This document shows positions 608 to 27,714 of a stretch of 36,689 nt of DNA, one piece after another. Source of the stretch: Neobacillus sp. (GTDB lineage: Bacteria > Bacillota > Bacilli > Bacillales > Cytobacillaceae). Position numbers and translations under genes: made by a program. The stretch lies in NCBI GenBank assembly GCA_029256785.1, contig JAQSXG010000004.1, positions 1 to 36,689 on the forward strand, in the 5' to 3' direction. How positions within the stretch are numbered: position 1 is the first letter of the stretch; each line of letters begins with the position of its first letter. The notes under the pieces are model-generated. The model saw only the letters and a program-made list of their open reading frames with translations. It did not search any database and was not told the DNA's origin.

Positions 608-697
608 TTTTATACACCTCTTCAAAATTTTTTCACCGATAAAGTAGTAACTTCCATCGTCATCATGACTCCTTTGACGACCACCTCCTTAAAGAAA

Positions 698-9967: not shown

Positions 9968-12539
9968 CCTCCTTTCTTGACGCTTGAAGAATATCAGCTA
10001 TTTTCTTAAATCCCTTGGGTTCTTCAATTGCCACGATGAGAGAGAAGAAGTCTTCAATACTGGTCTCTCCCGAGAGCAAGGAAACGGCTTGCTCGGCAAA
10101 TCCTCGTTCTGCGCAATTTTTCCTTATGGCCATTGCCAGTCGTTCAATCGCTTCTGTAGTGTAAAAAAAGGAACCTGGATTTTGCTTGGCCAGTTTTTCA
10201 GGTACAATGTCATGGAGTATTCGAAGCCGGATACGTTCTTGGCGTGTCCTCTGTTTGTGAACGACGGGAGAAGAAACATTTTCTTTATCCGGCTCATCAG
10301 CAGCTTGGGATTCTTCCTCCTTTTTTAACCCCTGTTCCTTGTACTCAGGTGGCTCTAAATCAACTAGTAGACTACCTAATTCGAGTTCTCGATGAGCACC
10401 ACTGTGAGCTTCAGGAATGTCTTTCCACTCTGTGAAGTCTTGAGGAATGTAATGGTAATAAGGATGAAAACGTGCTGACCCTTGATTTAATATGGGATAC
10501 GCAGTAATCAAATTCTTTTTCAAATCTTCATTTTTCATGATTCGCAATATAACGTTTTCGCTAAATTGCATCTGTTCCAATTCGGTGACTGTCATTAATT
10601 CAACAGTTTTTACCATTTCTGTTTCATCCTTGTTAATCGAAAACCATTTTCCCGATCGATTGATGTCCAGAACAGCCCTCTTTCCTAATCGCTCACTAAT
10701 TAATTCGGTTGTTGATTTTGATGGAGTCTTGATTAGAAAGGTGTAGCCACAGTTCGATAAAATCGTATCGTCAGTTCCTTCTGGATATATTCTCAGTTGT
10801 GAAAAACTCTGTAGAATAAGAAAGAAGCGTATGTTTCGTCCAAGACCAGCCGTCAACTTACTCTGAATATCATTTAGTGGTGGCAAATTACCAAATTCAT
10901 CTAAAAGATAAATAACTGGCCGTTTGCACTTTTGACCTGGTGCATCAAAAGCTAAATCAACCAGTCTCTTATAACTTTGTTCAATAAAAAATGTGGCCAG
11001 CTTATGATTGCTTTTATCTTGATCTGGAATAATCATAAACGTTGCAACCGGCTGATCCCCATAACCCATTTCATCAAAATCAAAGTCATTACGGGCCATT
11101 AACGTGGCAATTCCTGGTTGAATATACGTTTTTAGCCCAGAGAAAACATGGGTACCAATTCCTCCAATGGTCTCCTTTGCAGCACCAACCAACTTGATCC
11201 CACCATAAAGTGCCCGTGCTGGATGACTTAAAGGCAGCATGTCAAAGAGAACATCTAGTGTACTCAATCCTTTGTACTTAACATACATGTCCTTTAGTTC
11301 ATCTTCATTTGTGGTGTACTTCTTTAAAAATGGGTGATCCCAGCGATAGATACGCTCACCACTCATGTTTTCTAGCGTCATGGCCATAGAATAAAGGGCA
11401 ACCCGTTCCGTCTGTTTTCTGCTAATACAATGCTCGATCAATATCATTGCAATGGCTGTAAAAAGCAGCTGAGCATTGTCTCCCCACATTGGATTTTTGG
11501 CTTCTGGATTTTCGTAAAAAGTAAAAGCGATATTCATAATCGCTTTTTCAGCACTATCCAGCGCCTCATTTCGCTCGATTAAACTTAACTCTTTATTCAT
11601 CCAGCGCGCATAGTCCTTGATGGGTCCAGCAAAGGGATTATACGGCGTGGATTGATAGGTGTGCATCAAATTTAAGACCTTAATTTTATATCCACGTTTC
11701 TTCAATAGCTGATAATTTTCTTGGATTAGCTCTCCTTTAGGATCACTAATGATAAAACTCGCCCGTTTTTCAATGCTTCTAGGTCTAGAAAAAGAATCAA
11801 GAATCGGCCCAACGGAAAATACCTTTTTCCCTGATCTCGTAATTCCGATGATGCAGACATTCGTCACTTCCTGTGCAATCGAAATTAAAAAATCATTCTT
11901 CTTCTGAATTGCATTATTTGCTTCTGTTTTTTCTTCCTGGCTATCATCCAGAAATCGTACATGGCCTTTTGCCCCTGGAATCAGATCTTCTTTTCTTTCG
12001 CTATCAGTCAAACGCTCAACCTCTTCATATGAAAAATGAGCGATTGGAAGACCTGGCGTATCATCAAAGGGGATGGACATATCCGCTGGCATTAAGGGAT
12101 ACTGCTCAAGTAGTTCGTCCCGATCAGCAAAACGGCTTGTCCCAGCCGTAAAGCGATCTTCAAGAGCATAATAGGAACGATGAAGAAGAAATGCAAAGCG
12201 CCCAATATACAGTAGTGAAACCAGAATAAGCACAAGACTTATTTTCGGATGGTTAAAATAAAGCGAAAATGTCCAGAAGTTATGAGAAAACAAACTTTCA
12301 TAACTTTCGTTGATTCCGTGTATCGATGTTCTCAAGATATCCAACGTCGCCATGACAAAACTGTAAACCATCTGCAAGACAACCAAAACAATCAGTTCCA
12401 CTGCTATCGCAGCTGGAACAATCAGCTTGTTACGCGCGAGTAAGTCGGGTAAATTACGATACGACGAATAACGGTTATCCCTCCATTGTCCGGACTTATT
12501 GAGTTTCCATCGCCGTTTGATTCGTCGCTTCAAGAGCAT
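9945..12539 (-). CDS. virD4: VirD4/TraG-like type IV coupling protein
   Basis: Two N-terminal TM helices, Walker A-like GITRSGKKVF, Walker B VIYLLDEFGNLPPLNDIQ, RFFLILQSFSQL. Start MLLKRR at 12539 has upstream GGAGGTGG. Confidence 0.9.
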   Translation of the reverse strand: MLLKRRIKRRWKLNKSGQWRDNRYSSYRNLPDLLARNKLIVPAAIAVELIVLVVLQMVYSFVMATLDILRTSIHGINESYESLFSHNFWTFSLYFNHPKISLVLILVSLLYIGRFAFLLHRSYYALEDRFTAGTSRFADRDELLEQYPLMPADMSIPFDDTPGLPIAHFSYEEVERLTDSERKEDLIPGAKGHVRFLDDSQEEKTEANNAIQKKNDFLISIAQEVTNVCIIGITRSGKKVFSVGPILDSFSRPRSIEKRASFIISDPKGELIQENYQLLKKRGYKIKVLNLMHTYQSTPYNPFAGPIKDYARWMNKELSLIERNEALDSAEKAIMNIAFTFYENPEAKNPMWGDNAQLLFTAIAMILIEHCISRKQTERVALYSMAMTLENMSGERIYRWDHPFLKKYTTNEDELKDMYVKYKGLSTLDVLFDMLPLSHPARALYGGIKLVGAAKETIGGIGTHVFSGLKTYIQPGIATLMARNDFDFDEMGYGDQPVATFMIIPDQDKSNHKLATFFIEQSYKRLVDLAFDAPGQKCKRPVIYLLDEFGNLPPLNDIQSKLTAGLGRNIRFFLILQSFSQLRIYPEGTDDTILSNCGYTFLIKTPSKSTTELISERLGKRAVLDINRSGKWFSINKDETEMVKTVELMTVTELEQMQFSENVILRIMKNEDLKKNLITAYPILNQGSARFHPYYHYIPQDFTEWKDIPEAHSGAHRELELGSLLVDLEPPEYKEQGLKKEEESQAADEPDKENVSSPVVHKQRTRQERIRLRILHDIVPEKLAKQNPGSFFYTTEAIERLAMAIRKNCAERGFAEQAVSLLSGETSIEDFFSLIVAIEEPKGFKKIADILQASRKEVVEKSAT

Positions 12540-12780
12540 GTGAAGAACCACCTCCGTCAAGCGTTGACTTTGGTTTTTCAAGTTCAGCGATTTTCTTATT
12601 CGCTAGACTTAACTTCTTTAAAACCGGAAGCTGTTCCATGTAGATGCATTCTTTTTTACAATATTCCAGCAGAATTTCATGCAAACGGTCATCCGGGTTT
12701 TCCAGGTTGGCTTCGAAATAGGTCCTAAGCAAGCTTTCAGTTGCCTTAATTTCTTTCTTGCTATATTTGCTTTTTCCCAA
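12496..12780 (-). CDS. Small hypothetical protein
   Basis: 94-aa ORF in operon context, overlapping virD4. Confidence 0.6.
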   Translation of the reverse strand: MGKSKYSKKEIKATESLLRTYFEANLENPDDRLHEILLEYCKKECIYMEQLPVLKKLSLANKKIAELEKPKSTLDGGGSSHALEATNQTAMETQ

Positions 12781-12794
12781 GATTCCTTCCTCCT

Positions 12795-13847
12795 TTAGAA
12801 ATGTTTATGGAGAGCAACTTTGACCAACGAACTCAATAAGTGCGATGGAACATAAAACCAGGTCGGAACTTTGAATTTAAAGGTTGCCACAAGAAAAAAA
12901 GCAATGGCATATAGGGAAACTAAAGTAAATATCCCTCGAAATAAGCCAATGGAAGGCCTGAAACGATCCGACGATTTATGACGACCTTGCAGCTGTTTAA
13001 GCAAGATAGCCTGCTTTTTCCTTTCCTTTTTCTTAAAATCCTCGTGTTCCTTGTTATTACGTTTTATCTCAAGGTTTTTTAACTCCAATTGTGTTTCATA
13101 GAAACTAAGTCGTTGATCAATGCGTTCACCAACAAGCCCCATCGTTTTTGATACAATTTCATTGATGGAGTCATTAGGTAGAGCCGTTCCCTCAGCTGAT
13201 GAATCCGACGACAACTGATCACCAATACTCTCCGTTGATAGAGAACTATTTTCATAAGGCACTTGACTATCGCTTATTTCCTGTTCATCCTGATTGGATT
13301 GTGTATCCCCGAGCCGTTCATGTTTCGTTTGTTTTAGAGCTGCATGTTTTTTGAATTTCTCTCTTATAAACTGATATAGTTTCTTCAGTGAAGTCCCAAT
13401 ATAAATCAAGAAGATCCATGCATAGTGCACTATTCCCTTCACAATTTTTAGGAGATAATTACTTATTACCTCCACATGTAAATAAATAGGTGGGCCCTTT
13501 TCATGTCTCTTCTTTGTTTTTTTCCTAATAAAAGAAGAAGGCCCAGAGGGCATTACCTCTGAGTCTTCAAACCATTGCATAACTGTTTCATATTCTTGTT
13601 TTGATATTCTTTTCTGCTTGTTGTAATGGTTGAATAATCGTACAAGCAGATCCACTACTGTTTCACTTTGACCGGTAACAAACGTAGTATGGAAAAAAGG
13701 GTCTTTTGTAGAAGGATCAAGTAAATTGAACTCGACAGTATGAACAACCTTAATTCCATTGCAATGTTCACTAAATTCCTTTAAGGATAATTCTGTCTTT
13801 GGCCGGATTGTCTCAATATCTGATTTATCAATACTGACGGTAATCAT
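12795..13847 (-). CDS. Hypothetical membrane protein with charged coiled-coil region
   Basis: 350 aa, two TM regions, Lys/Glu-rich segment (KNLEIKRNNKEHEDFKKKERKKQ). Confidence 0.65.
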   Translation of the reverse strand: MITVSIDKSDIETIRPKTELSLKEFSEHCNGIKVVHTVEFNLLDPSTKDPFFHTTFVTGQSETVVDLLVRLFNHYNKQKRISKQEYETVMQWFEDSEVMPSGPSSFIRKKTKKRHEKGPPIYLHVEVISNYLLKIVKGIVHYAWIFLIYIGTSLKKLYQFIREKFKKHAALKQTKHERLGDTQSNQDEQEISDSQVPYENSSLSTESIGDQLSSDSSAEGTALPNDSINEIVSKTMGLVGERIDQRLSFYETQLELKNLEIKRNNKEHEDFKKKERKKQAILLKQLQGRHKSSDRFRPSIGLFRGIFTLVSLYAIAFFLVATFKFKVPTWFYVPSHLLSSLVKVALHKHF

Positions 13848-13849
13848 TA

Positions 13850-14212
13850 TTAGCCACCAAATATATTAGTTGCATATAGAGCTACACTGACACCACATGC
13901 AACGAAGAAAATACCTGTGATTGTCGCAAAAATATGACCTTTGGCCCACTCTCTCATAAAGCGCGGTCCAATCCATCCGAATCCAATGCAGATAAATGAT
14001 GTCCCAGCAAAACCTGCAAAAATTGATTTTCCAAAACTTTGGAAATCTGTGTTAGCTTTATTAACGCTGATTTTTAAATCATCTTTTGCAAAAGTCGCAT
14101 GTGGAAATGCAATTATAACTAAGACATACGCTAGAACAGCCAATCCTGTTAGGAAAAAGATCTTCTTCTTTGAAAGTTTGTGATGCTGCAATGCAATAAT
14201 TCCTTTTTTCAT
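13850..14212 (-). CDS. VirB2/pilin-like small membrane protein
   Basis: Start MKKGIIALQ with AGGAGGG upstream; signal peptide ending HATFA, then two hydrophobic helices. Confidence 0.6.
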   Translation of the reverse strand: MKKGIIALQHHKLSKKKIFFLTGLAVLAYVLVIIAFPHATFAKDDLKISVNKANTDFQSFGKSIFAGFAGTSFICIGFGWIGPRFMREWAKGHIFATITGIFFVACGVSVALYATNIFGG

Positions 14213-14310
14213 AATTCCAAACCCTCCTAAATTTTTGTTGGATCCACAAGTAAAACTAACCAGCGACCCACCAAAGAATCGCCAATAGATCACCCCCTAA
14301 TAAACAATAT

Positions 14311-14562
14311 TTAGATCAGATAAAGTAATGTATCTGTAACACCCGGAATGTAGCTTGTAACTTTATAACAACGCATTGCTTGTATAGAAGGACAATAAAA
14401 AACGACCGGCATATGGTTTTTAACCACTCGTCCGGCCCGTCCTACATTCTTACCTAGATGCTCATTTCTCGAATCACGCCATCGAAAAGATTTTTTCCTT
14501 TCGATATCGTGTAATTGCTCTGCCGTAACTTCGAAAGTCAATTCCTGCCTCCTTGCTGCCAT
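14311..14562 (-). CDS. Small hypothetical protein
   Basis: 83-aa ORF collinear with the operon. Confidence 0.45.
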   Translation of the reverse strand: MAARRQELTFEVTAEQLHDIERKKSFRWRDSRNEHLGKNVGRAGRVVKNHMPVVFYCPSIQAMRCYKVTSYIPGVTDTLLYLI

Positions 14563-14590
14563 TGTTGCGCCCCCAAACGACCGACAAAAA

Positions 14591-14615
14591 ATAAAATTCG
14601 CAGACGTCTGCGAAA
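14591..14615 (-). terminator. Intra-operon intrinsic terminator
   Basis: Perfect palindrome TTCGCAGAC/GTCTGCGAA followed on the minus strand by TTTTATTTTTTG, right after the stop of the 56-aa ORF. Confidence 0.85.
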
Positions 14616-14786
14616 TTAATGGATAAAATAGCCAATAAATCCACTTACACTAGGAATTACTGAAGTCCACCAGTTATGAAGATTAGTCAAATCCTGCGGA
14701 AACCAAACTCTTAACACTTCGTATGCCGCAGCAGCAAGGCCTACAATAATTGCAGCCCAAACATAGCGATCAATATTTTGTGGCAT
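14616..14786 (-). CDS. 56-aa hydrophobic pilin-like protein (absent from the ORF track)
   Basis: MPQNIDRYVWAAIIVGLAAAAYEVLRVWFPQDLTNLHNWWTSVIPSVSGFIGYFIH with RBS AAAGGAGGTGAGACAAT-ATG; flanked by TadE-like/TadC-like genes. Confidence 0.75.
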   Translation of the reverse strand: MPQNIDRYVWAAIIVGLAAAAYEVLRVWFPQDLTNLHNWWTSVIPSVSGFIGYFIH

Positions 14787-14822
14787 ATTGTCTCACCTCC
14801 TTTCAAAGATTTTTGTATATTT

Positions 14823-15188
14823 TCAACTGCCCCGAACAAACGAAACAGATGATCCCGGAAAAGTATTAGCGTGAAATGGCAAATTAAAAAATGGAAACTC
14901 AATAGTATTGGTTAATTCATAGTTAACAGGTGTTCCATATGGTTTAACATCATTGCCTGATAGACTTTTTACAGAAAATCTACCATGATATTTTTCTTTG
15001 CTTAATGTTTCTAACTTGTTCATAACGTCGGGTGTTAATCCTCCATTTTCTTCAATAGAGGTATCAACAGCCATTTGAAAGCCATTGGTCTGATCATTAC
15101 CAATGGAGTAGTAACTCCATCCAGCTAAAACCAGAATCACAACAACACTAAGACCTAAAAGCAAATAAAAACTAATACCGTGTTCCAA
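14823..15188 (-). CDS. Pseudopilin/TadE- or DUF4320-like protein
   Basis: 121 aa, short N-terminus, single hydrophobic helix, soluble C-terminal domain; adjacent to TadB/C-like genes. Confidence 0.5.
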   Translation of the reverse strand: MEHGISFYLLLGLSVVVILVLAGWSYYSIGNDQTNGFQMAVDTSIEENGGLTPDVMNKLETLSKEKYHGRFSVKSLSGNDVKPYGTPVNYELTNTIEFPFFNLPFHANTFPGSSVSFVRGS

Positions 15189-15203
15189 GCTTCTCCCCCC
15201 AAA

Positions 15204-15917
15204 TCAAAAATGCAAACCCTTCCACATATCAAGCATCATTAAAACCAAGTAAGTCATTAAAGGAATCATAACCAATGCCCCACTTGAAGTGATGATCCCA
15301 ATGAATTTATCCAGTTTCAACTGAATCACATCATCAATGACATTAAAAACCGTTACACGGTTTTCATGCCCAAGTTCATAGATTACATCAGTATCATTTG
15401 CATTTTGCTGAAAATCGTATAATGTGTGTAATAAGTTGCTAGCAGAATCAGTACCACTAGCCCTTTCTGCAAATTCTTCAAATGGTTTAATTGAAAATGG
15501 TCGTTTTATTAATCCAATCAAAAAAAGACTTAAAGAATCTTTAAGGGGACCACTAGGCAAGTTGTCATATATCCTCTGAAATACAATGCTCATTGTCGTC
15601 TCTTTTTGGAGTAATTCTGATATTGCCAATGTCATCATGCGGTCAAACTCTACCTGACGTTTAACTTTTAAATATTTGTGCTTTAATAACACCTGATGTC
15701 GATTTAAAAACCAAACAGCTAATGCAATCAGTGGCGCGAACATAAGCAGACTAAAAGACTTGTAAAGTAAACCCAGTAAAACGCCAACGAAAAAAGCAAG
15801 AAATGTAAGTAATATTCTCTTCCGAGTAAATTGCTTTACTTGTTTCTGGGTATATTCCATGTCTTTCATGGCTGCTTTGAGAGTGTCGTCAACTAAAGAT
15901 AATCGAATTTTTCTCAA
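15204..15917 (-). CDS. TadC/T2SS-F-like membrane protein
   Basis: 237 aa, TM helices at both ends of a helical segment (FDRMMTLAISELLQKETTMSIVFQRI), downstream of a CpaF-like ATPase. Confidence 0.55.
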   Translation of the reverse strand: MRKIRLSLVDDTLKAAMKDMEYTQKQVKQFTRKRILLTFLAFFVGVLLGLLYKSFSLLMFAPLIALAVWFLNRHQVLLKHKYLKVKRQVEFDRMMTLAISELLQKETTMSIVFQRIYDNLPSGPLKDSLSLFLIGLIKRPFSIKPFEEFAERASGTDSASNLLHTLYDFQQNANDTDVIYELGHENRVTVFNVIDDVIQLKLDKFIGIITSSGALVMIPLMTYLVLMMLDMWKGLHF

Positions 15918-16732
15918 CCTAACTCCACCTCTGTTACACTGTTATCCGTGGCGCGTTTCATATAAACACGGTCATGTAAATACCCTTGAGCCAGAAGGAA
16001 TATACCATTTAGAATCCAGCCCACAGGATGATGTCCATCGATCCTTAAGTAATTACCCCAACCAAAAAGAGTGAACGTCCACCAAAGCAAAAGATAAGCA
16101 CCAATTGTGATAACCGTATAGGCCCACATTTGGTACTTTTTCCGTTGAATGTATTGATTACGTTTCGTAATCATCATGTTGTGAAAATAAGTCAGATCTT
16201 TTATTGACTTTTCATCGGCTCTTCCATAAATCATTGCGTAGAAGAGTTGTTTACAATAATGAACAAACCAAACATCCTTGGTATATTTCGATTCAAAACT
16301 GTTAAATGCCCTAAGTTTTCGGTTATTACTTGCTCCATATGTTTGAACAATAAGTTTACTTACATCATCTCGAAATTCGCCCTGCATTCGATCACGGACC
16401 AATTCTAGTGCTCCCAATACTGTTTGCTTTTTGTTTAATAATATTTGGGTAACATTATTAACAAAGTTGTTTCGTTCCTGTAATGCTTTGGATTCATAAT
16501 ATTGTTTTGCTGAATTTGGCATTAACTTTCGATACCCATAAAAGACACCAACTAGACCAAAAACAATACTTACTGGCACATAAAAATAAATTAGATAGGA
16601 GATAAGGAATAAAACAATGAAGGGCTTAAATAAAGCCCAAGCTACTTCTTTTCCAGCAATTTTATCTCCGTATGCAGACCGCCAGGCAACGATCTCATCA
16701 ATTTTCCAGGTTCTTTTCTTATTCCGGCTCAT
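15914..16732 (-). CDS. TadB/T2SS-F-like membrane protein
   Basis: 272 aa, paired TM helices at N- and C-halves, translationally coupled to the CpaF-like ATPase. Confidence 0.5.
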   Translation of the reverse strand: MSRNKKRTWKIDEIVAWRSAYGDKIAGKEVAWALFKPFIVLFLISYLIYFYVPVSIVFGLVGVFYGYRKLMPNSAKQYYESKALQERNNFVNNVTQILLNKKQTVLGALELVRDRMQGEFRDDVSKLIVQTYGASNNRKLRAFNSFESKYTKDVWFVHYCKQLFYAMIYGRADEKSIKDLTYFHNMMITKRNQYIQRKKYQMWAYTVITIGAYLLLWWTFTLFGWGNYLRIDGHHPVGWILNGIFLLAQGYLHDRVYMKRATDNSVTEVELG

Positions 16733-17952
16733 AATATAGCCTCATTTTGGAAAAACTCATATGGAACATGGAATTTTTTAACTCTCTTTTGAAAGTCCTC
16801 GCTAGGCTCACCTAAGAACCCGTAAAATTTACCATCTTCCTCTTTTCGTTCATATAGAGTTGTGGTTGTCTCATCCGAGTGAAATTCTATGATCTTTCCA
16901 ATAAAGCGTACAGTTTTTCCATTAATTTCGGTTTTCTCAAGGTGAATCCCAAAGTGAAAATAGGCATAGATATCTTGTCGAAGTGACGCTTCTTCCAAGT
17001 TATAGCCCATCTTCGCCATATGAATGAAACGAGAGGGAATTGCTTCAGGATTAAATGCGTGAAGAGTGCCAATAATACTGTGCCCAGATAGTACCCCCTG
17101 AAGCATTTCATATGCCTCTGATCCACGAACTTCAGAAACTATGATCCATCGAGGATTATTTCTGAGCGAGGCCTTCACTAAGTCTGTAATTGATGTGTTT
17201 TCGGATGTCAACCAGCTATAAATATCTTTATTTTTCGGATATAGCTGCTTAACGTGACCTTCTGGAACATCTTCGATATAAATGATTTTCTGTTTAAAAG
17301 GAATCATTCCAAGTAATAGTTTCTGTAATTCTGTTTTTCCAACTCCGGTTTCACCGTCAATTAAAATATTGGACCGTGTCAAAACAGCTGCCTGAAGAAG
17401 TGGAAAAACATAAGGATCGGCCAATTCAGAGAAATTTTCATTTGTTAATACTAATTTTGGTCGAGAAACACGAATAGAAAAAGTACACGTATCATTTGGC
17501 GACAAGCTTTTGTGTACTGCATTTAGTCGAAAATAACCAATCTGTGCATCGAGAATTGGCTCTTTTTCCGTAAACTCTTTTTTAGCGGCATCCGCAAAAC
17601 GTTGGATGACTTCGTCAACCTGGCTACTATTAATGTGTTCATCATAAATTTCTTTAAGTTGGTTAGTTTCGACAATTATGTCGTCTCCATTACCGGAAAT
17701 ATCAGTTACATCTGGATAGCGTTTCATGATCCGTTCAAGAAACTTCAATCCAACCATTTCCTGCATTGCGTATTCCAGCTGTTCCTGTGACAGCTCAAAT
17801 TTCTTAATCTGTTCATCCTCTTGGATAAGTTGTTTTAAGACCTCACGTGCTTCAGGACTTTTAAACGCCTTATAGACAACCTCCGCATACTTCTTTTGTT
17901 CAGTTAGATAATCAAATAATTCGGTAACAACAGCACTGTCTAAGACTCCCAT
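16729..17952 (-). CDS. CpaF/TadA/VirB11-family secretion ATPase
   Basis: Walker A GETGVGKTELQK, Asp box IIYIEDVPE, Walker B-like RWIIVSEVRGSEAYEMLQ, His box GHSIIGTLHA. Confidence 0.9.
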   Translation of the reverse strand: MGVLDSAVVTELFDYLTEQKKYAEVVYKAFKSPEAREVLKQLIQEDEQIKKFELSQEQLEYAMQEMVGLKFLERIMKRYPDVTDISGNGDDIIVETNQLKEIYDEHINSSQVDEVIQRFADAAKKEFTEKEPILDAQIGYFRLNAVHKSLSPNDTCTFSIRVSRPKLVLTNENFSELADPYVFPLLQAAVLTRSNILIDGETGVGKTELQKLLLGMIPFKQKIIYIEDVPEGHVKQLYPKNKDIYSWLTSENTSITDLVKASLRNNPRWIIVSEVRGSEAYEMLQGVLSGHSIIGTLHAFNPEAIPSRFIHMAKMGYNLEEASLRQDIYAYFHFGIHLEKTEINGKTVRFIGKIIEFHSDETTTTLYERKEEDGKFYGFLGEPSEDFQKRVKKFHVPYEFFQNEAIL

Positions 17953-17965
17953 AGAATCAATCCTT

Positions 17966-18340
17966 TCAATATGCTAAATTATCAAGACGGATAGTTTTTG
18001 AATACTTATTACCCTGATCGTCTCCAACTTGAATCCTTACGGCTAGTACAACATCACCATGTTTTAAATAGCTGAAATTATAGTTAATATTTTTAAGAAC
18101 TACATTGCTATCCTTTGGAAACATTTCTTCAAAATCTTTTTCAAACCCACTTTGATTTAGTTCAGTTTTTGTCATATCTGTCCGTGATCTTAGGTTTATA
18201 TTCTGTGAGATAGCCTTTTTTCCCGTTGTATTAATTGTTTTCGTTATTCCTAAATGGTGATAACTTGTTGTAGAAAATGTTCCTCCCATCACAATAAAGA
18301 AAACTGCTATACCGATGACCACGAAACACAAGTACATCAC
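17966..18340 (-). CDS. Pseudopilin-like / DUF4320-like membrane protein
   Basis: 124 aa, one N-terminal TM helix, soluble domain; organised like the 14823-15188 product. Confidence 0.45.
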   Translation of the reverse strand: MMYLCFVVIGIAVFFIVMGGTFSTTSYHHLGITKTINTTGKKAISQNINLRSRTDMTKTELNQSGFEKDFEEMFPKDSNVVLKNINYNFSYLKHGDVVLAVRIQVGDDQGNKYSKTIRLDNLAY

Positions 18341-18389
18341 TTTGATAGTTATCCATCCCTTCTCATGGATTTTCGGCCTTACAGATCAA

Positions 18390-18420
18390 ATAAAAAGGAA
18401 CAGCTTATTGGCTGTTCCCT
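18390..18420 (-). terminator. Intra-operon intrinsic terminator
   Basis: Minus strand GGAACAGC-CAATAA-GCTGTTCC followed by TTTTTATTTG. Confidence 0.85.
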
Positions 18421-18451
18421 TAATATATTTTTGTCATTCTATTTTTTATTG

Positions 18452-19003
18452 CTAGATCAAATGTATCTCTCGTCTCTCCTCACCGTATTCAACAATTTTT
18501 TCAATATAGAATTGCTCATTCCTTTTTTTTAAGTGAATAACAATAGGACGAGCTACTTTAAATATCTCATACAAGTTGCTTAGATTCATTACCGGGTTGG
18601 CATATTTCATAGTCATAAGCAAGTGTTGAACAGCATGATCTACATCATATCCAATAATTGTTGTTAAAACTGGATATTTAGCAGTTAATATCTTCACAAG
18701 CGTGCCGGCATTCTCTCCATTACACTCATCGATGTACCAAATGTCCGCATTACAGCTCATAAAGCTAGGATTGTTAACATCGTAGTTCTGTGCATTCATC
18801 GGCTTCTTTGTAGTGAAAATCTCACCATATGGATCAGCTGCAGCTACTCTTTTCTCTGAAAAGTAACGAATTAGAAGGTTTATACAGAATGAAGTTTTTC
18901 CAACGCCAGTTAACCCACTAACAAACACTGGTCTATGACCCAAAACTTTTTTTACATATAAGTTTGCAGAAGAATCAATCAAACTTCCTTCAACCAAGCT
19001 CAT
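18452..19003 (-). CDS. Small P-loop ATPase
   Basis: Walker A GLTGVGKTSF, Walker B-like ADIWYIDECNGE; truncated relative to CpaF/VirB11 proteins. Confidence 0.65.
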   Translation of the reverse strand: MSLVEGSLIDSSANLYVKKVLGHRPVFVSGLTGVGKTSFCINLLIRYFSEKRVAAADPYGEIFTTKKPMNAQNYDVNNPSFMSCNADIWYIDECNGENAGTLVKILTAKYPVLTTIIGYDVDHAVQHLLMTMKYANPVMNLSNLYEIFKVARPIVIHLKKRNEQFYIEKIVEYGEERREIHLI

Positions 19004-19022
19004 ATTCACCACTCTCACTTTC

Positions 19023-21842
19023 TTATTTACTTTTTAACCAATCCAAATCTTTTTGAGTCCAACCAGAAGGTAGACCTTGTGTAAATCCTATTTGTGTATC
19101 CACTCCACTAACAACAATATTGTCATCTTTTATAGTGGGGGATCCCATCCAACCAATCATATACGCATATATTCTAATTTGATCATCAATCCTAAATTTA
19201 ACTTTGTTAACTCCTATGTCATTTGACAAATAATCAACAGAATAATTTTTAGGAATGTCCTCTCCTTTAGCTGGCCAAATAGGCGTATAAAATTCATTAT
19301 GCCCATCATAAATGGTGTTTTTTATTCGAGAATCATGATCAGCAACCTGTTTATCAGTAAATAGTTTTCCAGTTACATCTTCCACGTTCACATGAGGAAA
19401 TATAAAACCGTACAATCGATAATAACTTCCATCAGATAAAAAAGAATTATCGTCCGAATTTTTCATTGACACATTTACTTTTCCATCCTTTACAGGATAG
19501 TCAAGGTAAGAATCCTGCAACGATTCAGGAGCTTGAAAGGTTAATGAATTATCATTTACAGATGTTGCATAGTTATACTCGCTGCCTAAATCTGACCAAT
19601 AGGTAAGAAATGCTTTTGTTTCAACGCCATAGCCTGTTTTCTTTGCTGGCAACGGTTGTGCGCCGTAATCAATATGTTCAAACTTCTGATCGGGCGTCTG
19701 GCGCGCCTCCACCTCAGTCATTGCCACGCGTTGCTGCACGTCTTCGTGATCCGGATCAGTCTGCACATATAAATCAACAGTATCCTCAGAACTTGTGTAG
19801 CCGTCTGTTGTCAGCTCTCGCTCGCTGCTGATTATGTCAAAGTCGTTTGTATCGTAATTTTCCAGTCTTACGGTGTACGGCTTGTGCTCATTAACCGACA
19901 ATTTATCTTTTGGAATCTTAAAGGTTAGATACGTTGGCAAATCCTTGGCTGAATAACGTTTTTCTTCATATCTTGTATCTCCCTGATAGAGAGAAACGCT
20001 AATCTGCTTACTGCCCATGTCGCCAATCCCGTAATCATAATTGTTGGCTTTGTCGAGATAGACCTTAACCGGCAGCCCTTCGTCGGCTGGCGCTGTGTAA
20101 ATTTGCAGCTTCTTAACTCCGGCCTGGATCAATGGAATGTCATAATAATAGTTAATGACAACATTGTCGGTACCTATTGTCCCATGCTCTGCAGAACCAC
20201 TTTCACGCACATAACGATATGTGTAGTCTCTGCCGTCTTTGCTTGTCGTAATGTTCGGATGATCCTCGTCCCAATGATCACCTTGGTGTAAATCATATTC
20301 CTTTGATTCTTTAATCTTCTGGCCGGTCCGATTGTCATAGTAGTTAACTTCAACATGACGTCTTAAGCGATATAGGAATGTGTGATCCTGGTCCCAATTG
20401 GGCTGATTGCCATCAAAGACACTGCCATCATTTCGATCAAAGATTGCTCCATTCCAAATTGTAAAGGTGGCCGGTTGATCATAGAAATAATGATCTCCAA
20501 CTTTTATCAAATCATCCTTGTATTGGAAAACATCATTGTTTGGGTATTGGTTCTTCCATGTTACACGCGTGTGATTGTATTCATCATAGTAATACTGAAT
20601 CCACAGATCACCCCGCGGCATATTGCCCGTGTAATGGTTGTTGCCTGTTTCCTTGTAATGATGACCATCACGATCGAACTCCCCTGTCGATGGCCATTCA
20701 TCATACCACTGGCCGGCCCACACATTCGGGACGTCCTCTGTCCACATCACGTGACCATCATGCGTATCGACATACTGCTTATGGATCGTCCATTTGGTGT
20801 GATACCAAAAAGTCACATCAAAATTATTGCTAGGAACCGTACCATTGGCCGTCTGATCGCCGTCCTCAAATTCATCAATTCCGTTATGCCAAAAATCATC
20901 ACGACTGTGTTCTTCATAATATGTGCCGATCGTTACAGTCTTTGTTTCGGTATCCAGTTCTTCATTCGTCTGACGGTCCTTGTGATGAATCGTCATTTGT
21001 ACAGTTCGAGGATAAAAGTTTGCACTAATTCCGTCTGGTAAAGGGGGATCGGCGTCCCATGTTCCTCCTCGCATTAAATTTTGTAAACTATTGTTACTAA
21101 CATCAGTCAATATTGCTTGAAATGGTTTCATCGATCCATATACATCACCACTAGACCAATTATTGTTGTAATTGAGCTCTGCCCATAGAAAAAATGTTTG
21201 TCCACCTTTCACTGTTTCCTTCCCGACTCCACTAGTTCCTTTTGTCTGGTTATACAAATGAATCCCGTCAGGAAGATTGAAAGTTACACTATTATCCGGA
21301 TCTGCATTTAATGTTGTGCTTTGTGATACCTGTTTATTCCCGGTGTGATCTGGTACGGTACCAATTTTAGTTGTCAAATTATGATCAGAAAAACTCACAT
21401 TTGCATTTGGAATTGAACCAGATTGAGCCTTATTCCACAGATCACTATATCCGTCAATTGAGTGACCACCTGCATCCTCACCCGTATATAGTCGAGATAA
21501 AACTAGTGAAGTTACAACATATCCTCTTGCCTTATCATTGCCAAATATATTTTCCGGGCCATCCCATCCATAATATAAAGCACGCCGAATTTTTGCATTA
21601 CTATATACACTTTCACCTTTATTTGCTGATCCAGTAGGTGTTGTACTTTTATCATGTTGAACACAGAAAGCAGTATATCCATTGACTTTAAACTCTCCAA
21701 CCATGCTCCCTCCATAAGATATTGGATCTTTCGCTCTCCAAATATCGGCCGAAGCTGCGGAACTAACATTGGCTTCAAAAAAATATTGGACGATTAAGAT
21801 TGCAATGATTAAGTAAATACCAACATTTTTTATAAATTTCAT
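19023..21842 (-). CDS. Large secreted adhesin: degenerate thioester-like domain plus MucBP-like repeats
   Basis: Signal peptide; FCVQHDKSTTPTG Cys motif; repeated YY(D)/HxG MucBP-like modules ending in YYYDxx; no LPXTG (ends DWLKSK). Confidence 0.75.
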   Translation of the reverse strand: MKFIKNVGIYLIIAILIVQYFFEANVSSAASADIWRAKDPISYGGSMVGEFKVNGYTAFCVQHDKSTTPTGSANKGESVYSNAKIRRALYYGWDGPENIFGNDKARGYVVTSLVLSRLYTGEDAGGHSIDGYSDLWNKAQSGSIPNANVSFSDHNLTTKIGTVPDHTGNKQVSQSTTLNADPDNSVTFNLPDGIHLYNQTKGTSGVGKETVKGGQTFFLWAELNYNNNWSSGDVYGSMKPFQAILTDVSNNSLQNLMRGGTWDADPPLPDGISANFYPRTVQMTIHHKDRQTNEELDTETKTVTIGTYYEEHSRDDFWHNGIDEFEDGDQTANGTVPSNNFDVTFWYHTKWTIHKQYVDTHDGHVMWTEDVPNVWAGQWYDEWPSTGEFDRDGHHYKETGNNHYTGNMPRGDLWIQYYYDEYNHTRVTWKNQYPNNDVFQYKDDLIKVGDHYFYDQPATFTIWNGAIFDRNDGSVFDGNQPNWDQDHTFLYRLRRHVEVNYYDNRTGQKIKESKEYDLHQGDHWDEDHPNITTSKDGRDYTYRYVRESGSAEHGTIGTDNVVINYYYDIPLIQAGVKKLQIYTAPADEGLPVKVYLDKANNYDYGIGDMGSKQISVSLYQGDTRYEEKRYSAKDLPTYLTFKIPKDKLSVNEHKPYTVRLENYDTNDFDIISSERELTTDGYTSSEDTVDLYVQTDPDHEDVQQRVAMTEVEARQTPDQKFEHIDYGAQPLPAKKTGYGVETKAFLTYWSDLGSEYNYATSVNDNSLTFQAPESLQDSYLDYPVKDGKVNVSMKNSDDNSFLSDGSYYRLYGFIFPHVNVEDVTGKLFTDKQVADHDSRIKNTIYDGHNEFYTPIWPAKGEDIPKNYSVDYLSNDIGVNKVKFRIDDQIRIYAYMIGWMGSPTIKDDNIVVSGVDTQIGFTQGLPSGWTQKDLDWLKSK

Positions 21843-21873
21843 TACTCCATTGCCCTTTCTTTATTGGGTTTTT

Positions 21874-21910
21874 TAATAAAAAAAACATCCAACATTAATT
21901 AGTTGAATGC
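21874..21910 (-). terminator. Intra-operon intrinsic terminator
   Basis: Minus strand CATTCAAC-N8-GTTGGATG (one G-U pair) followed by TTTTTTTTATT. Confidence 0.85.
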
Positions 21911-21941
21911 TTTGGCTATTATCTCAATGAAACGAACGCTG

Positions 21942-22544
21942 TTACCAGTTCCCAGATACCCAGTTTAGGCCATCTTCGGTTGATCCACTTTCCGTTATTG
22001 TTGCTTTATAATGAGTGCCCCCATCGCCTGTACTTGAAGAAGCAGCAGAGGAATCTGGATTGCTTGGACTTGTAGTAGCCGGAGCCGACGATGTTCCCGT
22101 AGATGGTTTTGCTGGCGCAGCAGGTTTAGAGACAGGTGCTGGTTTTGGTTTAGCGGGCTGCGATGCCGTTTTAACCGGTGCAGATTTTGTCTGAACTGGT
22201 GGTTTTGAAACCTTTGGTTTAGCAACAACTGTTTTCTTCGGTGTCAGAGCTGATTTTTTTACTGGTGCATTTTTGACTACTTTTTTTGGGATTACCTTTT
22301 TAGCTGTTTTCTTCACAGTTTTTTTAACAGGCTTCTTCGATCTACTATTTTTGGCCCTTTTTGCACTTTTTTTTGTTGATTTAACAGTAACTTTCTTTTT
22401 GGGTGCAGCTTTCTTCACTGTATTCTTATGGGTCACCTTAACCGTTTTAGTCTTAGGTGCCGCGTCTGCTTTTGTTGCCGTGCAACCGGTTAGCGCAGAA
22501 AAAACAAGTATTACAACAATAACAACTCCTATTACTTTATTCAT
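21942..22544 (-). CDS. Lys/Ala/Pro-rich lipoprotein
   Basis: Lipobox LTGC after a hydrophobic signal; histone-H1-like KK/KP/AK repeats; Ser/Thr linker. Confidence 0.75.
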   Translation of the reverse strand: MNKVIGVVIVVILVFSALTGCTATKADAAPKTKTVKVTHKNTVKKAAPKKKVTVKSTKKSAKRAKNSRSKKPVKKTVKKTAKKVIPKKVVKNAPVKKSALTPKKTVVAKPKVSKPPVQTKSAPVKTASQPAKPKPAPVSKPAAPAKPSTGTSSAPATTSPSNPDSSAASSSTGDGGTHYKATITESGSTEDGLNWVSGNW

Positions 22545-22599
22545 ATTTAACCCCTCTTCTCATTTTCTAGCATAAGGTAATGAACTAACTCCACTTAAA

Positions 22600-23010
22600 T
22601 CAGGAGTCATCTCATAATTTAGCGTTAAGATTCACAGGTTTATCAATGAACATTCAAAGAATACATCAACAACAAACATCTGAATCCTAATTACTATATT
22701 ATCGGTTTTAAAGCCCATCTGTTCAACCGTAACTCTACCTTGGCAAGAAGCTCAACACGCGCCGTTACACGGCAAACTCATAAATGCACGTTAAGCCCAA
22801 GGACGCTGACCGAACCTGCCGACTACCCGGAATTATCGTTCATAAGTTGCAACGACTCACTCCTTCTCACGCCAGGATGGAACTGTAACTCCCTAGTGCA
22901 TTGCCCGGTCTAAATATACACTAGGAGGGACTTACTCCCTAACTATTCAATTGCTGACGGGAAAGGTTCGCCAGCTGGTTACCACCCTCTTTCAAGTTAA
23001 AATATTATTT
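22600..23010 (-). ncRNA. Candidate structured RNA (minus strand)
   Basis: 470-nt gap without a credible ORF. Nested helix 22738-22743:22797-22802, 22750-22760:22786-22796 (11 bp including 3 G-U) and 22761-22765:22769-22773; helix 22892-22898:22919-22925; GCTGGC/GTCAGC stem with possible pseudoknot at 22953-22990. G-U pairs point to the minus strand. Confidence 0.7.
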
Positions 23011-23015
23011 CGTAT

Positions 23016-23312
23016 TCAAGCTTCTTCGCTGTTTCGGTAATGAGATTCCCTTATCGAAACAAATGCCTTGATTGAAAAATATAACTTTCCTTCCGGATTC
23101 AAGCGCTTGGCAATAATAATCCCATGCTCATTCTTAACGTTTCTAATTTTTCTGTAGAGATCCCCTGTTTTCACACGAGTTTTTAATACGGTGTTAACAA
23201 GATAAGATCCACGGACTACATGCTCAGCTGCTCCAAAAATCTGTACACGAGCACCCATTTTTTCGATATCTTTAACTGTCATTTCGTGCTTAACAAGAAT
23301 TGAATTTTTCAT
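23016..23312 (-). CDS. 98-aa basic protein, first gene of the conjugation operon
   Basis: RBS TTAGGAGGTTTGAT-ATG; flanked on both sides by structured RNA; candidate antitermination/RNA-binding factor by position only. Confidence 0.7.
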   Translation of the reverse strand: MKNSILVKHEMTVKDIEKMGARVQIFGAAEHVVRGSYLVNTVLKTRVKTGDLYRKIRNVKNEHGIIIAKRLNPEGKLYFSIKAFVSIRESHYRNSEEA

Positions 23313-23324
23313 ATCAAACCTCCT

Positions 23325-23371
23325 AATTAAAAATTAAAGAGCTGTTAAGACTATTAGTCCTAACAGCTCCA
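23325..23371 (-). terminator. Leader terminator/attenuator upstream of the first operon gene
   Basis: Minus strand GAGCTGTTAGGACT-AAT-AGTCTTAACAGCTC followed by TTTAATTTTTAATT. Confidence 0.75.
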
Positions 23372-23703
23372 ACAGCGGGCAATGAGCCAACAACAATTAT
23401 GTATTTCTCCAAATTAAACCATTGACAATATTCAATGGATAAATTAACGAAGAACCGTTATAATTATATGTTGTTGTATAGTTACATTGCTATACGGCTG
23501 AGGGGCAAGTTCGACTAACAGGTGCTACTGTTATTCGAGCCATATCCATGATCGGTTACCAGCCGACTTTTGGATCGCCCTTTCAATATTTATTAAGAAT
23601 AGAACAGGTACAAAGTACCTTTATCGACATTATAAATCATTTTATGACCAAAAAAGTCCCAAAAAAGTCCCAACTTTTCATTTAGTAACGAATTACTATT
23701 TCG
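23372..23703 (-). ncRNA. Structured 5' leader of the conjugation operon
   Basis: Hairpins TAACAG/CTGTTA (23516-23533), GTATAG/CTATAC, CCATTGA/TCAATGG; pseudoknot-type pairing GGGC/GCCC (23577-80:23503-06) with CGGCTG/CAGCCG (23560-65:23495-500). Confidence 0.6.
23683..23698. promoter_or_regulatory. Candidate operator next to the operon start
   Basis: Inverted repeat TAGTAA-CGAA-TTACTA just downstream of the minus-strand -10; tandem GGGACTTTTTT repeats at ~23650-23672. Confidence 0.35.
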
Positions 23704-23709
23704 AGTTAG

Positions 23710-23738
23710 AGTATAATTGGTAAAAATTACTTTGTCAA
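23710..23738 (-). promoter_or_regulatory. Promoter of the conjugation operon
   Basis: Minus strand TTGACA - 17 nt - TATACT. Confidence 0.8.
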
Positions 23739-23805
23739 TACATTGATCAAATTTTTAAAAATATCATTTTCTTTTTCTGACTTTTCTGATTGCGGAGATA
23801 TAACA

Positions 23806-23976
23806 ATGCGTGAGCATCCAAATAAAAAGATAAAGAGAAAAAATAAGACACTTACATTGGACATTGACCTATACAAAAAGATTCAGCAGCTCGCTGCTGA
23901 CATGGGTTATCCTACTAACAGACTAATTGAGATGGGTATGCGGTATATCCTAGAGAAATACAAGAACAAAGAGTAG
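23806..23976 (+). CDS. Ribbon-helix-helix (Arc/CopG-like) regulator
   Basis: MREHPNKKIKRKNKTLTLDIDLYKKIQQLAADMGYPTNRLIEMGMRYILEKYKNKE; start with GGAG upstream; divergent from the conjugation promoter. Confidence 0.65.
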   Translation: MREHPNKKIKRKNKTLTLDIDLYKKIQQLAADMGYPTNRLIEMGMRYILEKYKNKE

Positions 23977-23993
23977 CTATAGCCACTATAGCC

Positions 23994-24329
23994 CTAATCC
24001 GCTTTACTATCAATCTCACCCTCATACTTATTATCGATAGCACCTTGTACTTCTTTTATTAATTTATCAGCACTTATCTTTCCTTCAGCAAATTTATAAA
24101 ACGGGTCTTCAAACGAGTTGCTAAGAAAATGCCAAGTGCTATTTGTTCCTCCAAGAGATAAAACAAGAGCATGTTCTATACATGCCTCTAGTTTATCATT
24201 AAACCTACAATCATTTTGACCACTAAGCAATTCCACAGACCGTTCTACATTTTTTGTTGTCTTATGTACCTCTTGTAGTGCAATGATCAATAAATCAGTG
24301 ATCTCATTGCTCATGCTCTTCATCTCCAA
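23994..24329 (-). CDS. ~111-aa rep-associated protein, paralogue of 25616-25951
   Basis: Shared LALGG/LSLGGT...W.(F/Y)L...FEDPFY(K/Q)F(A/S)EGK(I/L)SA(D/E)(K/N)LIKE(V/I)Q pattern. Confidence 0.7.
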   Translation of the reverse strand: MEMKSMSNEITDLLIIALQEVHKTTKNVERSVELLSGQNDCRFNDKLEACIEHALVLSLGGTNSTWHFLSNSFEDPFYKFAEGKISADKLIKEVQGAIDNKYEGEIDSKAD

Positions 24330-25253
24330 CTATCTTTTATTTAGCCAATCGTATGAAGGCATTGGTGTGTACTCATTGGCCGCAGCTTGCTCACGTCTAG
24401 TTCTTTCTATTTCCCTTAGATGATGATTATAAAGTATCGTTCGACTATCTTCATGCATCAAAATTCCATCAACAAAAAACTGCCCAATCGCTCTAATTTC
24501 TTTATTGGAGTCTTCTACATATTTTATCATTCTATGATGTTCACTTAGCATTTGAGCATCCGTAAAATTTTCGATTTGTTTTTCCTTCATGTTTTTAAGA
24601 ATATCAAGAATTGTAAAATGTGAGTATTCAAGTTTATTTTCTAAATATGCGTAAGCATATTGATATTTTTTAATTAATTCTTCTTCTTCTAAATCAATAT
24701 TATTTAAATCAATATTACTAGACTCATTATTACTATAAGCGTGATTATTCAGATCTTGCTTATCTAGATCAAGTTTATCCAGAACTGGATAATCACGTTC
24801 TGGTGAATTTTCTTGATTCTTATCCAGAGCGTGATTATCACGTTCTGGATACTTCTCGTTTTTCTGATTCTTATTGTTGCGGACTTTGGTCTTTTTCTTT
24901 TTCTCGCTTATCTTTTCTCTCGCACTAGCCTGGGCTTCTTCTTGATGTGGGTTAAGTTCAGGAGATTCGTAGATTTCATAGATCCACTCCTTAACTGTTC
25001 CGTTAGCATTCCGTTCAGCATAATAATAGACATAACCATAAAGCATCAGATCCCACAATGCTGATCGAACCGTGGTTTCCCCATCATTTGCTCTTTTCAC
25101 AAGATCAGCTTGATTAACTTTCCACCCATCTGGTCGTGATAAGAGGTACATCATTAATCCCTTCGAAGCCCACTTTAATTTTGGATTTTCTACAAAGGTC
25201 TTATCAATTTGAACGAATGGGTTCTCTCTCTTGTTTACACGTATTGCTGTCAT
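24330..25253 (-). CDS. Plasmid replication initiator-like protein (winged-helix/DnaD-like N-terminus), replicon 2
   Basis: ENPFVQIDKTFVENPKLKWASKGLMMYLLSRPDGWKVNQADLVKRANDGETTVRSALWDLMLYGYV; internal dyad repeats; ctRNA-type leader. Confidence 0.75.
   Translation of the reverse strand: MTAIRVNKRENPFVQIDKTFVENPKLKWASKGLMMYLLSRPDGWKVNQADLVKRANDGETTVRSALWDLMLYGYVYYYAERNANGTVKEWIYEIYESPELNPHQEEAQASAREKISEKKKKTKVRNNKNQKNEKYPERDNHALDKNQENSPERDYPVLDKLDLDKQDLNNHAYSNNESSNIDLNNIDLEEEELIKKYQYAYAYLENKLEYSHFTILDILKNMKEKQIENFTDAQMLSEHHRMIKYVEDSNKEIRAIGQFFVDGILMHEDSRTILYNHHLREIERTRREQAAANEYTPMPSYDWLNKR
24779..24848. repeat. Dyad iterons inside rep gene of replicon 2 (candidate origin)
   Basis: CCAGAACTGGATAATCACGTTCTGG (24779-24803) and CCAGAGCGTGATTATCACGTTCTGG (24824-24848); partial copy at ~24738. 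Confidence 0.6.
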
Positions 25254-25261
25254 AATAAAAT

Positions 25262-25303
25262 AAGCCTCCTAAATTCCTGACACGGCAGGGATCTAGGAGG
25301 CTT
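25262..25303 (-). promoter_or_regulatory. RBS-sequestering leader hairpin, replicon 2
   Basis: AAGCCTCCTA/TAGGAGGCTT (minus strand) with AGGAGG in the 3' arm, upstream of the rep ATG. Confidence 0.8.
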
Positions 25304-25389
25304 AAAAGCTAGCATTTTTACTAGATTTTAACACAGTTTTTTAACCGTTTTTTGTTTACTTTTAAGCCAAAAATGGCTATAATAGTAAC

Positions 25390-25492
25390 TAAAGAACGAA
25401 TATAATTCCTCTTAAGATCCCTGAGTTTTGTTAACGTTCAAGACGCCAATCTGAACACGTTAACAACGATCAGGGGTTTTTATTTTGTTTTG
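25390..25492 (+). ncRNA. Antisense ctRNA of replicon 2
   Basis: Promoter TTTACT-17-TATAAT (25355-25383); terminator hairpin TTGTTAACGTTCA/TGAACaCGTTAACAA with CAGGGGTTTTTATTTTG; antisense to the rep leader. Confidence 0.75.
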
Positions 25493-25525
25493 ATTATTTC
25501 GATGTTGATCTATCTTCTGCTTTGG

Positions 25526-25531
25526 ATTATA
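25526..25531 (-). promoter_or_regulatory. rep mRNA promoter (extended -10), replicon 2
   Basis: Minus strand TGTGGTATAAT within a block shared with replicon 1. Confidence 0.6.
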
Positions 25532-25615
25532 CCACAACTTGCCAGAAGAATAATAGAGTTTAACAGTCAAATACAGTTTTCATAACATGCGCCATCCTGG
25601 AGAAATTTATATGGA

Positions 25616-25951
25616 CTAACACAAATCGGCTTTGTGAAAGTTGATTTCAATTTCTCCTTCAAGCTTATTAAGTATGGCCTCTTGAATTTCTTTTATCAAA
25701 TTCTCAGCACTTAACTTCCCTTCGGAGAATTGATAAAATGGATCCTCAAACAATGATCCAAGATAATTCCAATTGCCAATTGTTCCTCCAAGTGCAAGTA
25801 CAAGGGATTGTTCCAAACTGGTCCTAATTTCTCTAAATTGATATTTTTTTTCTTCTCCACCGAGTAATTCTAATATTTGTGTTTCTCTTTTTTCAATTTT
25901 GTCGATTTCTTTTAACGCAACTAATAACAGTTGGACTTTTACATCTGTCAT
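25616..25951 (-). CDS. ~111-aa rep-associated protein, paralogue of 23994-24329
   Basis: LALGGTIGNWNYLGSLFEDPFYQFSEGKLSAENLIKEIQ. Confidence 0.7.
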   Translation of the reverse strand: MTDVKVQLLLVALKEIDKIEKRETQILELLGGEEKKYQFREIRTSLEQSLVLALGGTIGNWNYLGSLFEDPFYQFSEGKLSAENLIKEIQEAILNKLEGEIEINFHKADLC

Positions 25952-25969
25952 TTTTACTGCCCCTCTTTC

Positions 25970-27034: not shown

Positions 27035-27041
27035 ATCAAAA

Positions 27042-27082
27042 ACCTCCCAAATACCCTAACAGAACGGGAATCTTTGGGAGGT
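27042..27082 (-). promoter_or_regulatory. RBS-sequestering/attenuator hairpin, replicon 1
   Basis: Minus strand ACCTCCCAAA/TTTGGGAGGT followed by TTTTTGATTTG (TTG = start codon). Confidence 0.8.
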
Positions 27083-27168
27083 AATTTATGTATAAGTTTC
27101 CTTATTTTAAGCCACTATTTTTGCCTTAATCCGTTTACTTTTATACCCATTTTGGGTATAATGAACTT

Positions 27169-27277
27169 AACGAAAAAAGCTAAATAGATTCTTTTCCCAA
27201 AGATCCCTGTAAATTGTTATCGTCCTAGTTTGGCGACTTATACGATAACAAATGGTCAGGGGTTTTATTTTTTTATA
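27169..27277 (+). ncRNA. Antisense ctRNA of replicon 1
   Basis: Promoter TTTACT-17-TATAAT (27134-27162); hairpin CCCTG..TTGTTATCG/CGATAACAA..CAGGGG followed by TTTTATTTTTTT. Confidence 0.8.
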
Positions 27278-27318
27278 TCCAAATTTTTAAAGTCAAATAT
27301 GCTTGTTCCTTGCTTTGG

Positions 27319-27324
27319 ATTATA
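27319..27324 (-). promoter_or_regulatory. repA mRNA promoter (extended -10)
   Basis: Minus strand TGTGGTATAAT. Confidence 0.6.
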
Positions 27325-27439
27325 CCACAAGTTGCCAAAAGATTAATAGATTTATTTGTAGTGCTTTTAACGAAGTACGTGTAAAAATAATACTATATCG
27401 GCCCTCCCAATAAACGATTTATAGTTTTCCAGATGATTA

Positions 27440-27700: not shown

Positions 27701-27714
27701 TGGGAGTGGAATAG

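Follow-up and report, generated by a model that had tools for sequence, protein, structure and literature searches.

A probable conAn-type antitermination system at the start of a conjugation operon in Neobacillus sp.

The beginning of a conjugation operon on contig JAQSXG010000004.1 of Neobacillus sp. (GenBank assembly GCA_029256785.1) most likely represents a bipartite processive antitermination system of the conAn type, carried by a conjugative plasmid of Bacillales; we put the probability of this reading at about 90%. The DNA analysed, hereafter called the window, is the stretch of 36,689 nucleotides from positions 1 to 36,689 of the contig, and the source assembly is a draft genome in 721 contigs with 7.1% contamination. 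The function of conAn has been established in the plasmid pLS20, where the RNA conAn2 is responsible for antitermination and the protein ConAn1 is the processivity factor (PMC8955417). Homology, anatomy, covariation and terminator enrichment were observed here directly, and it is from the homology to pLS20 that we infer antitermination itself and the roles of ConAn1 and conAn2 in the window. A first-pass annotation of the same DNA had proposed either a conAn system or an unrelated analogue. The ConAn1 homology of the first gene, a conAn2 core and hairpin downstream of it, and a strand-specific enrichment of terminators all favour the former, and the system is a divergent member of the known conAn kind.

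A ConAn1 homologue encoded first in the operon

The first gene of the operon, conAn1 (23016-23312, minus strand), encodes a protein of 98 amino acids (aa) that was identified by homology searches and alignment as a ConAn1 homologue consisting of the N-terminal domain only. In tblastn searches it matches pLS20 ConAn1 (NC_015148; 6e-10) and a protein annotated as 'Antiterminator protein ConAn1' in OK210094 (6e-12), and matches were found in 33 plasmids, 32 of them from Bacillus. Its alignment covers the N-terminal half of pLS20 ConAn1 (172 aa), and the signature RNVKN..G.I..KR is retained, so that the earlier proposal of this gene as the protein factor of an antitermination system, to be checked against ConAn1, has held. 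Profile searches recovered similar proteins, many of 80-100 aa, from five of 194 genomes of the family and 25 of 399 genomes of the order, the window's own genome being counted among them. Domain searches with the 98-aa protein gave no NusG-type match, and its AlphaFold2 model (mean pLDDT 81.6) has no fold match in the PDB or in viral model libraries. At the DNA level, the 194 family genomes yielded the window itself and a single 40-bp match as close relatives of the region, and no related loci were found in genome and viral contigs by the ConAn1 protein or by alignment.

Genes for ConAn1-like proteins of 80-100 aa also occur at chromosomal or element-borne loci of Bacillales (L022, L023, L033, L035, L038, L045 and similar), where a long structured gap comes after the gene; most have the conAn2 core described below, and the leader RNA is missing. 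These loci may constitute a family of elements that perhaps all use conAn.

A near-consensus promoter and an operon dense in predicted terminators

The probable main conjugation promoter (23710-23738, minus strand) is Pc-like and sigma-A-like (TTGACA-17-TATACT), agreeing with the consensus at 11 of 12 positions. It ranks in the top two of the 58 promoter-like sites at 10000-28000, a number that shows no enrichment of such sites as a class (60.5 expected). From it, a leader of about 390 nt extends to the conAn1 ATG at 23312; in pLS20 the distance from promoter Pc down to conAn1 is 462 bp (PMC8014075), and a long structured 5' untranslated region (UTR) was noted in pLS20 in 2014 without an assigned role (PMC4207663). 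From 23312 to 26 the minus strand then carries a gene block without a break, all main genes having this orientation. The promoter, the leader length and the single one-strand block were thus all recognised correctly by the first-pass annotation.

Many intrinsic terminators are predicted inside the operon, all from sequence scans. A stricter scan of 1-23703 gave 11 terminator-like hairpins on the operon strand and one on the opposite strand, with a mean of 1.2 and a maximum of 4 in 20 dinucleotide shuffles. Ahead of conAn1 lie a weak leader hairpin (23417-23440) and the leader terminator (23338-23370), which has a 15-bp stem followed by a T-rich stretch, is located between the leader RNA and the conAn1 ribosome-binding site, and has conserved counterparts in relatives; its position in the window was taken from separate terminator scans. 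Further down are hairpins at 21886-21909, 18395-18420 and 14595-14616 (the latter two detected in the first scan as well), at 13538-13567 within the gene at 12795-13847, at 11525-11545 within the VirD4-type gene, at 9736-9763 within the p028-like gene, at 6759-6789 within virB4, at 4483-4509 at the virB4 end, and at 2923-2943. The leader terminator and the three strong terminators listed beforehand (near 21874-21910, 18390-18420 and 14591-14615) are all among them. Terminators within virD4, the p028-like gene and virB4 make little sense unless they are normally bypassed.

A very improbable alternative is that the hairpins are weak or decorative, each gene group being served by its own promoter and the RNAs acting in translation or mRNA stability. 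Promoter-like sites do occur throughout, though at chance level, and the Inc18 transfer operons lack antitermination, with one predicted terminator there being non-functional (PMC8955417). Against it stand the 11:1 strand bias, the roughly tenfold excess over shuffled sequences, the location of some hairpins within genes, and the presence of both a ConAn1 homologue and a covarying conAn2.

Under the conAn reading, polymerase would start just downstream of 23710, cross the leader RNA with its terminator, and transcribe conAn1, followed by conAn2. The conAn2 RNA would load onto the elongating polymerase while still nascent, and ConAn1 would keep the complex terminator-resistant, so that polymerases from the main promoter could pass some nine internal hairpins and reach virB11, virD4, virB4 and the relaxase gene; stray transcripts would stop at the first hairpin.

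The conAn2 RNA and its core across relatives

Behind the ConAn1-like gene, most of the loci inspected have a few hundred bases of noncoding DNA. This gap aligns well among pLS20-type plasmids, where a long helix closes it. The most widely shared part of the gap, which we call the core, consists of helix A, the motif UAG(A/G)GUU, and helix B with a loop ending in GCYAnAA, and is found downstream of ConAn1-like genes in Bacillus, Sporolactobacillus and Listeria plasmids and at many Bacillales loci. A first core covariance model, whose training set was limited to six pLS20-type plasmids plus a single Listeria copy, detects Sporolactobacillus (1e-8), a second Listeria copy (4.5e-7), an Enterococcaceae-like traE-family locus (2.7e-7) and the enterococcal plasmid pCF10 (0.034). 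Both-sided changes are seen in 15 of the 17 pairs of the core alignment, and covariation reaches 0.662 versus 0.221 +/- 0.028 and is lost once the partners are slid. Such model-based pair counts are a better test than hand-chosen helices, though the alignments are fitted to their structure; the hand-chosen helices were selected to pair and their shuffle values are optimistic. A retrained model placed the core downstream of about 15 more ConAn1-like genes at loci fetched by protein alone, always on the same strand and downstream wherever the gene is known. Under strict filters it found the core in four of the 399 order genomes, in three of them beside ConAn1. A relaxed core pattern has 49 matches in all loci, many of them close copies and hence not 49 independent cases, versus one in reversed sequence. 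In Listeria plasmids, two tandem cores (L051, 3496-3570 and 3709-3824; L053, 2980-3054 and 3193-3308) follow a ConAn1 homologue of about 190-220 aa and are apparently enclosed by one closing helix.

In the window, a conAn2-type structured RNA occupies the interval between conAn1 and the next gene (22545-23015, minus strand), as indicated by folding, alignment and core models; 22560-23010 folds better than shuffled sequences (z -2.8). Its hairpin, CCUCC-[stem]-loop-[stem]-GGG (22894-22923), recognised from sequence and helix Chp, is positioned as in pLS20, and its stem has changed completely (UAGUGUAU/AUGCACUA for pLS20 AAAGGUAU/AUACCUUU). Core 1 (22701-22805) comprises helix A (CCUUGG/CCAAGG), UAGAGUU and helix B (CGGUU/AACCG), and scores 20.5 bits with model R3 (E 7.6e-4 in 2.2 kb) and 9.1 bits with R2. 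A second core, such as the Listeria plasmids have, is tentatively placed at 22557-22632 (GGAGUU, loop ACCUUAUGCUAGAA), with 17.6 bits in R2 and 15.8 bits in R3; its R2 E-value is 0.0014 in 1.4 kb and just 0.64 in a larger search. The 3' strand of the pLS20 closing helix (CAUUGAUAAAC-UGUGAAUC), conserved in sequence between the window and pLS20, forms a local 3' hairpin with an adjacent strand in the window (22625-22690; pair probability >0.99): its duplex is predicted at -20.0 kcal/mol locally versus -10.4 with the 5' end, the corresponding values for pLS20 being -6.7 and -40.4. Any partner of a conserved strand must look complementary, and our claim is therefore one of changed topology, not of relocation of the old strand.

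The first-pass annotation had regarded the structured RNAs on both sides of conAn1 as parts of the system. For the region 22600-23010 this stands, as it is conAn2; the leader (23372-23703) is better viewed as a separate element. The two RNAs are not equivalent, since the downstream one has the conAn2 core and hairpin and the leader is missing from chromosomal ConAn1 loci. In pLS20, ses was named the third gene of the operon (PMC8955417); with conAn1 as the sole coding gene before it, conAn2 should, in our reading, sit between the two. We equate the downstream RNA with conAn2 because the comparative evidence agrees with this position. It is improbable, though less so than the own-promoter alternative, that the leader RNA (23503-23580) is the antiterminator and thus the true conAn2, the downstream RNA doing something else: the leader is transcribed first, shows high conservation in the plasmids and, in the relatives compared, lies ahead of a terminator, but chromosomal ConAn1 loci have the downstream core without the leader, and the numbering of ses as the third gene fits a conAn2 between conAn1 and ses.

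Neither RNA region has a match in Rfam, the search that had been suggested for them: its covariance models, EAR among them, gave nothing at the gathering score in the window and its relatives, and chance-level hits only at E up to 10. The conAn2 core motif defined here by comparison is absent from Rfam.

A conserved leader RNA ahead of conAn1

The leader region (23372-23703) folds better than shuffled sequences (z -5.6), and about 80 nt of it (23583-23502) are 80% identical to DNA upstream of a ConAn1 gene in a B. pumilus plasmid. Covariance model R1 and pair counts define here a three-way junction, GGGC-[P2]-AUAUGGCUC-[P3]-AACUU-GCCC (23503-23580, minus strand), present in all ten loci compared, namely the window, seven pLS20-type plasmids and two Sporolactobacillus loci, the latter detected by a model not trained on them; in Listeria plasmids the leader is visible by eye and weakly by score. 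Its pairs are formed in 96.6% of cases, with a covariation of 0.347 versus 0.171 +/- 0.018. In the ten plasmid-type loci, the terminator begins 142-214 nt and conAn1 205-279 nt past the leader start. The leader was absent from every chromosomal ConAn1 locus searched, and under strict filters, which missed the Sporolactobacillus copy, it was found in just two of the 399 genomes, both bearing conAn1.

As the leader terminator lies before conAn2, conAn2 cannot act on it in cis; it is transcribed before conAn2 exists, and the leader therefore needs its own solution. Judged by position, we favour, at about even odds, a leader that is its own attenuator or a local antiterminator; feedback by ConAn1 is possible. 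A somewhat less probable proposal, concerning the leader alone and compatible with the conAn reading of the operon, is that it is a ligand- or protein-sensing attenuator (with ConAn1 feedback as an example) that plays no role at the distal hairpins. In its favour, the compact three-way junction with invariant junction letters stands ahead of a terminator, and its GCUC is complementary to the GAGC starting the terminator stem in nine of the ten loci, both being lost together in the tenth. On the other side, this complementarity spans just 4-5 bp, no ligand is known, and Rfam offers no match. Because the leader must solve a termination problem beyond the cis reach of conAn2, it points to a second layer of control; if this is true, the three-way junction and terminator would be a second, apparently undescribed RNA switch deciding whether polymerase reaches conAn1 and conAn2.

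Points that weigh against the conAn reading

Several features of the window count against its assignment to conAn. Its ConAn1 lacks the C-terminal half. Its conAn2 is the most divergent of its group, with just 20.5 bits for core 1 and a GCUUUAA loop instead of GCYAnAA, and a default-filter search returns, for the window, the tentative second core alone; homology and covariation of core and hairpin hold across the family, with a low score in the window itself. The closing helix has changed topology: in the pLS20 branch a long helix runs from the conAn1 stop to the conAn2 3' end, and in the window the 3' strand pairs locally, though such a helix is a feature of the compared plasmids and not a stated defining feature of conAn. 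Finally, the contig stops at base 1, leaving about 23 kb of operon visible (23.3 kb), versus more than 30 kb in published conAn operons (PMC8955417). The contig edge may have cut the operon, whose end, together with any antitermination-resistant terminator, may have been lost beyond the gene for a WxL-domain surface protein found there (26-625, minus strand).

Relationship to other conjugative elements

Like pLS20 (Bacillus subtilis natto) and its plasmid family, the window encodes a ConAn1-family protein first in the operon and conAn2 RNA next, with a thioester adhesin gene downstream; it also has numerous predicted terminators and a promoter followed by a long structured 5' UTR. It differs in the size of ConAn1 (98 versus 172 aa), in having a local hairpin in place of the closing helix of conAn2, in a possible second core, and in having as promoter neighbour a small divergent open reading frame (ORF; 23806-23976, plus strand) and no Rco-type repressor gene. 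This 56-aa ORF has no Pfam match and by eye resembles a ribbon-helix-helix regulator; it may stand in for pLS20 Rco. With the window, conAn comes to include a divergent plasmid whose ConAn1 is half-size and whose conAn2 is rearranged. The order leader, terminator, conAn1, conAn2, surface proteins and thioester adhesin is common to pLS20-type plasmids and two Sporolactobacillus genomes. The latter, S. shoreae and S. shoreicorticis (L048, L050), have the architecture closest to the window, with the leader, the terminator, a 97-aa ConAn1, a conAn2 with a similar 5' hairpin, a low-complexity secreted protein and, as seen in L048, a thioester-type adhesin; unlike the window, they have one conAn2 core found, and their ConAn1 is about 27-30% identical to that of the window.

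Cores resembling that of conAn2 also occur in an enterococcal set consisting of pheromone-type plasmids and one Enterococcaceae-like genome. In E. faecalis pCF10 (L056) the core lies at 9435-9506, downstream of prgR, between prgR/prgS and prgA; others lie downstream of traE-family genes (L057, 1328-1261, minus strand; L059, 3105-3156; L061, 3152-3203), about 470-490 nt from traE in a plasmid with that gene annotated. Pheromone plasmids (with TraE of the pAD1 type or prgR-prgS of pCF10) thus resemble the window in having a conAn2-like core downstream of traE or prgR. They differ in that pCF10 has no leader of this type and PrgR is not detectably related to ConAn1; an antitermination role of their core would be an extrapolation. 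TraE is distantly similar to ConAn1 in profile comparison; PrgR was rejected as a ConAn1 homologue (hhalign probability 1%). Chung and Dunny reported in 1992, according to the title listed among the references of PMC6540685, that pCF10 has a cis-acting, orientation-dependent control with a reach of over 10 kb; an RNA antiterminator would behave in this way. In both pCF10-like and traE plasmids the core sits where long-known positive regulation maps, and the old puzzle of resistance-plasmid transfer is therefore directly testable. The literature searched, which excludes the founding conAn paper, does not link the conAn2 core with enterococcal plasmids. Whether one conAn2 fold serves pLS20-type plasmids, integrative elements of Bacillales and enterococcal pheromone plasmids, with a leader switch added ahead in the plasmid branch, we regard as evenly balanced.

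Tn916 carries canT, an RNA antiterminator that acts in cis from the beginning of its conjugation operon, inside which there are terminators (PMC11658703). The conAn reading gives the window the same features; unlike conAn, canT has no protein partner. The core model has no match in the canT region, the comparison being confined to this model and the S3 site. That the inactivating canT(S3) mutation hits UAGAGUU was considered and rejected, as the site reads TTATCGTG[ATA]ATGATAC.

Other genes of the window

The gene following conAn2 encodes a lipoprotein-like, Lys/Pro-rich protein of 200 aa (21942-22544), and a secreted low-complexity protein occurs at the same place in Sporolactobacillus. After it come, also on the minus strand, genes for a thioester-domain (TED_2) adhesin that is the counterpart of pLS20 Tie (19023-21842; Pfam PF20610, 6.5e-8), a VirB11/TadA-type ATPase (16729-17952), a VirD4-type coupling protein (9945-12581), a conjugation transmembrane protein of the pLS20_p028 family (7400-9967; NF045890, 9e-73), a VirB4-type ATPase (4497-7055) and a MobP2-family relaxase (727-2343; NF041498, 1.3e-77). 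On the other side of the promoter, a gene for a single-strand binding protein, typical of plasmid leading regions, lies among small plus-strand ORFs (31899-32402, plus strand), and a RepA_N replication initiator, which points to a plasmid contig, is encoded at 25970-27034 (minus strand).
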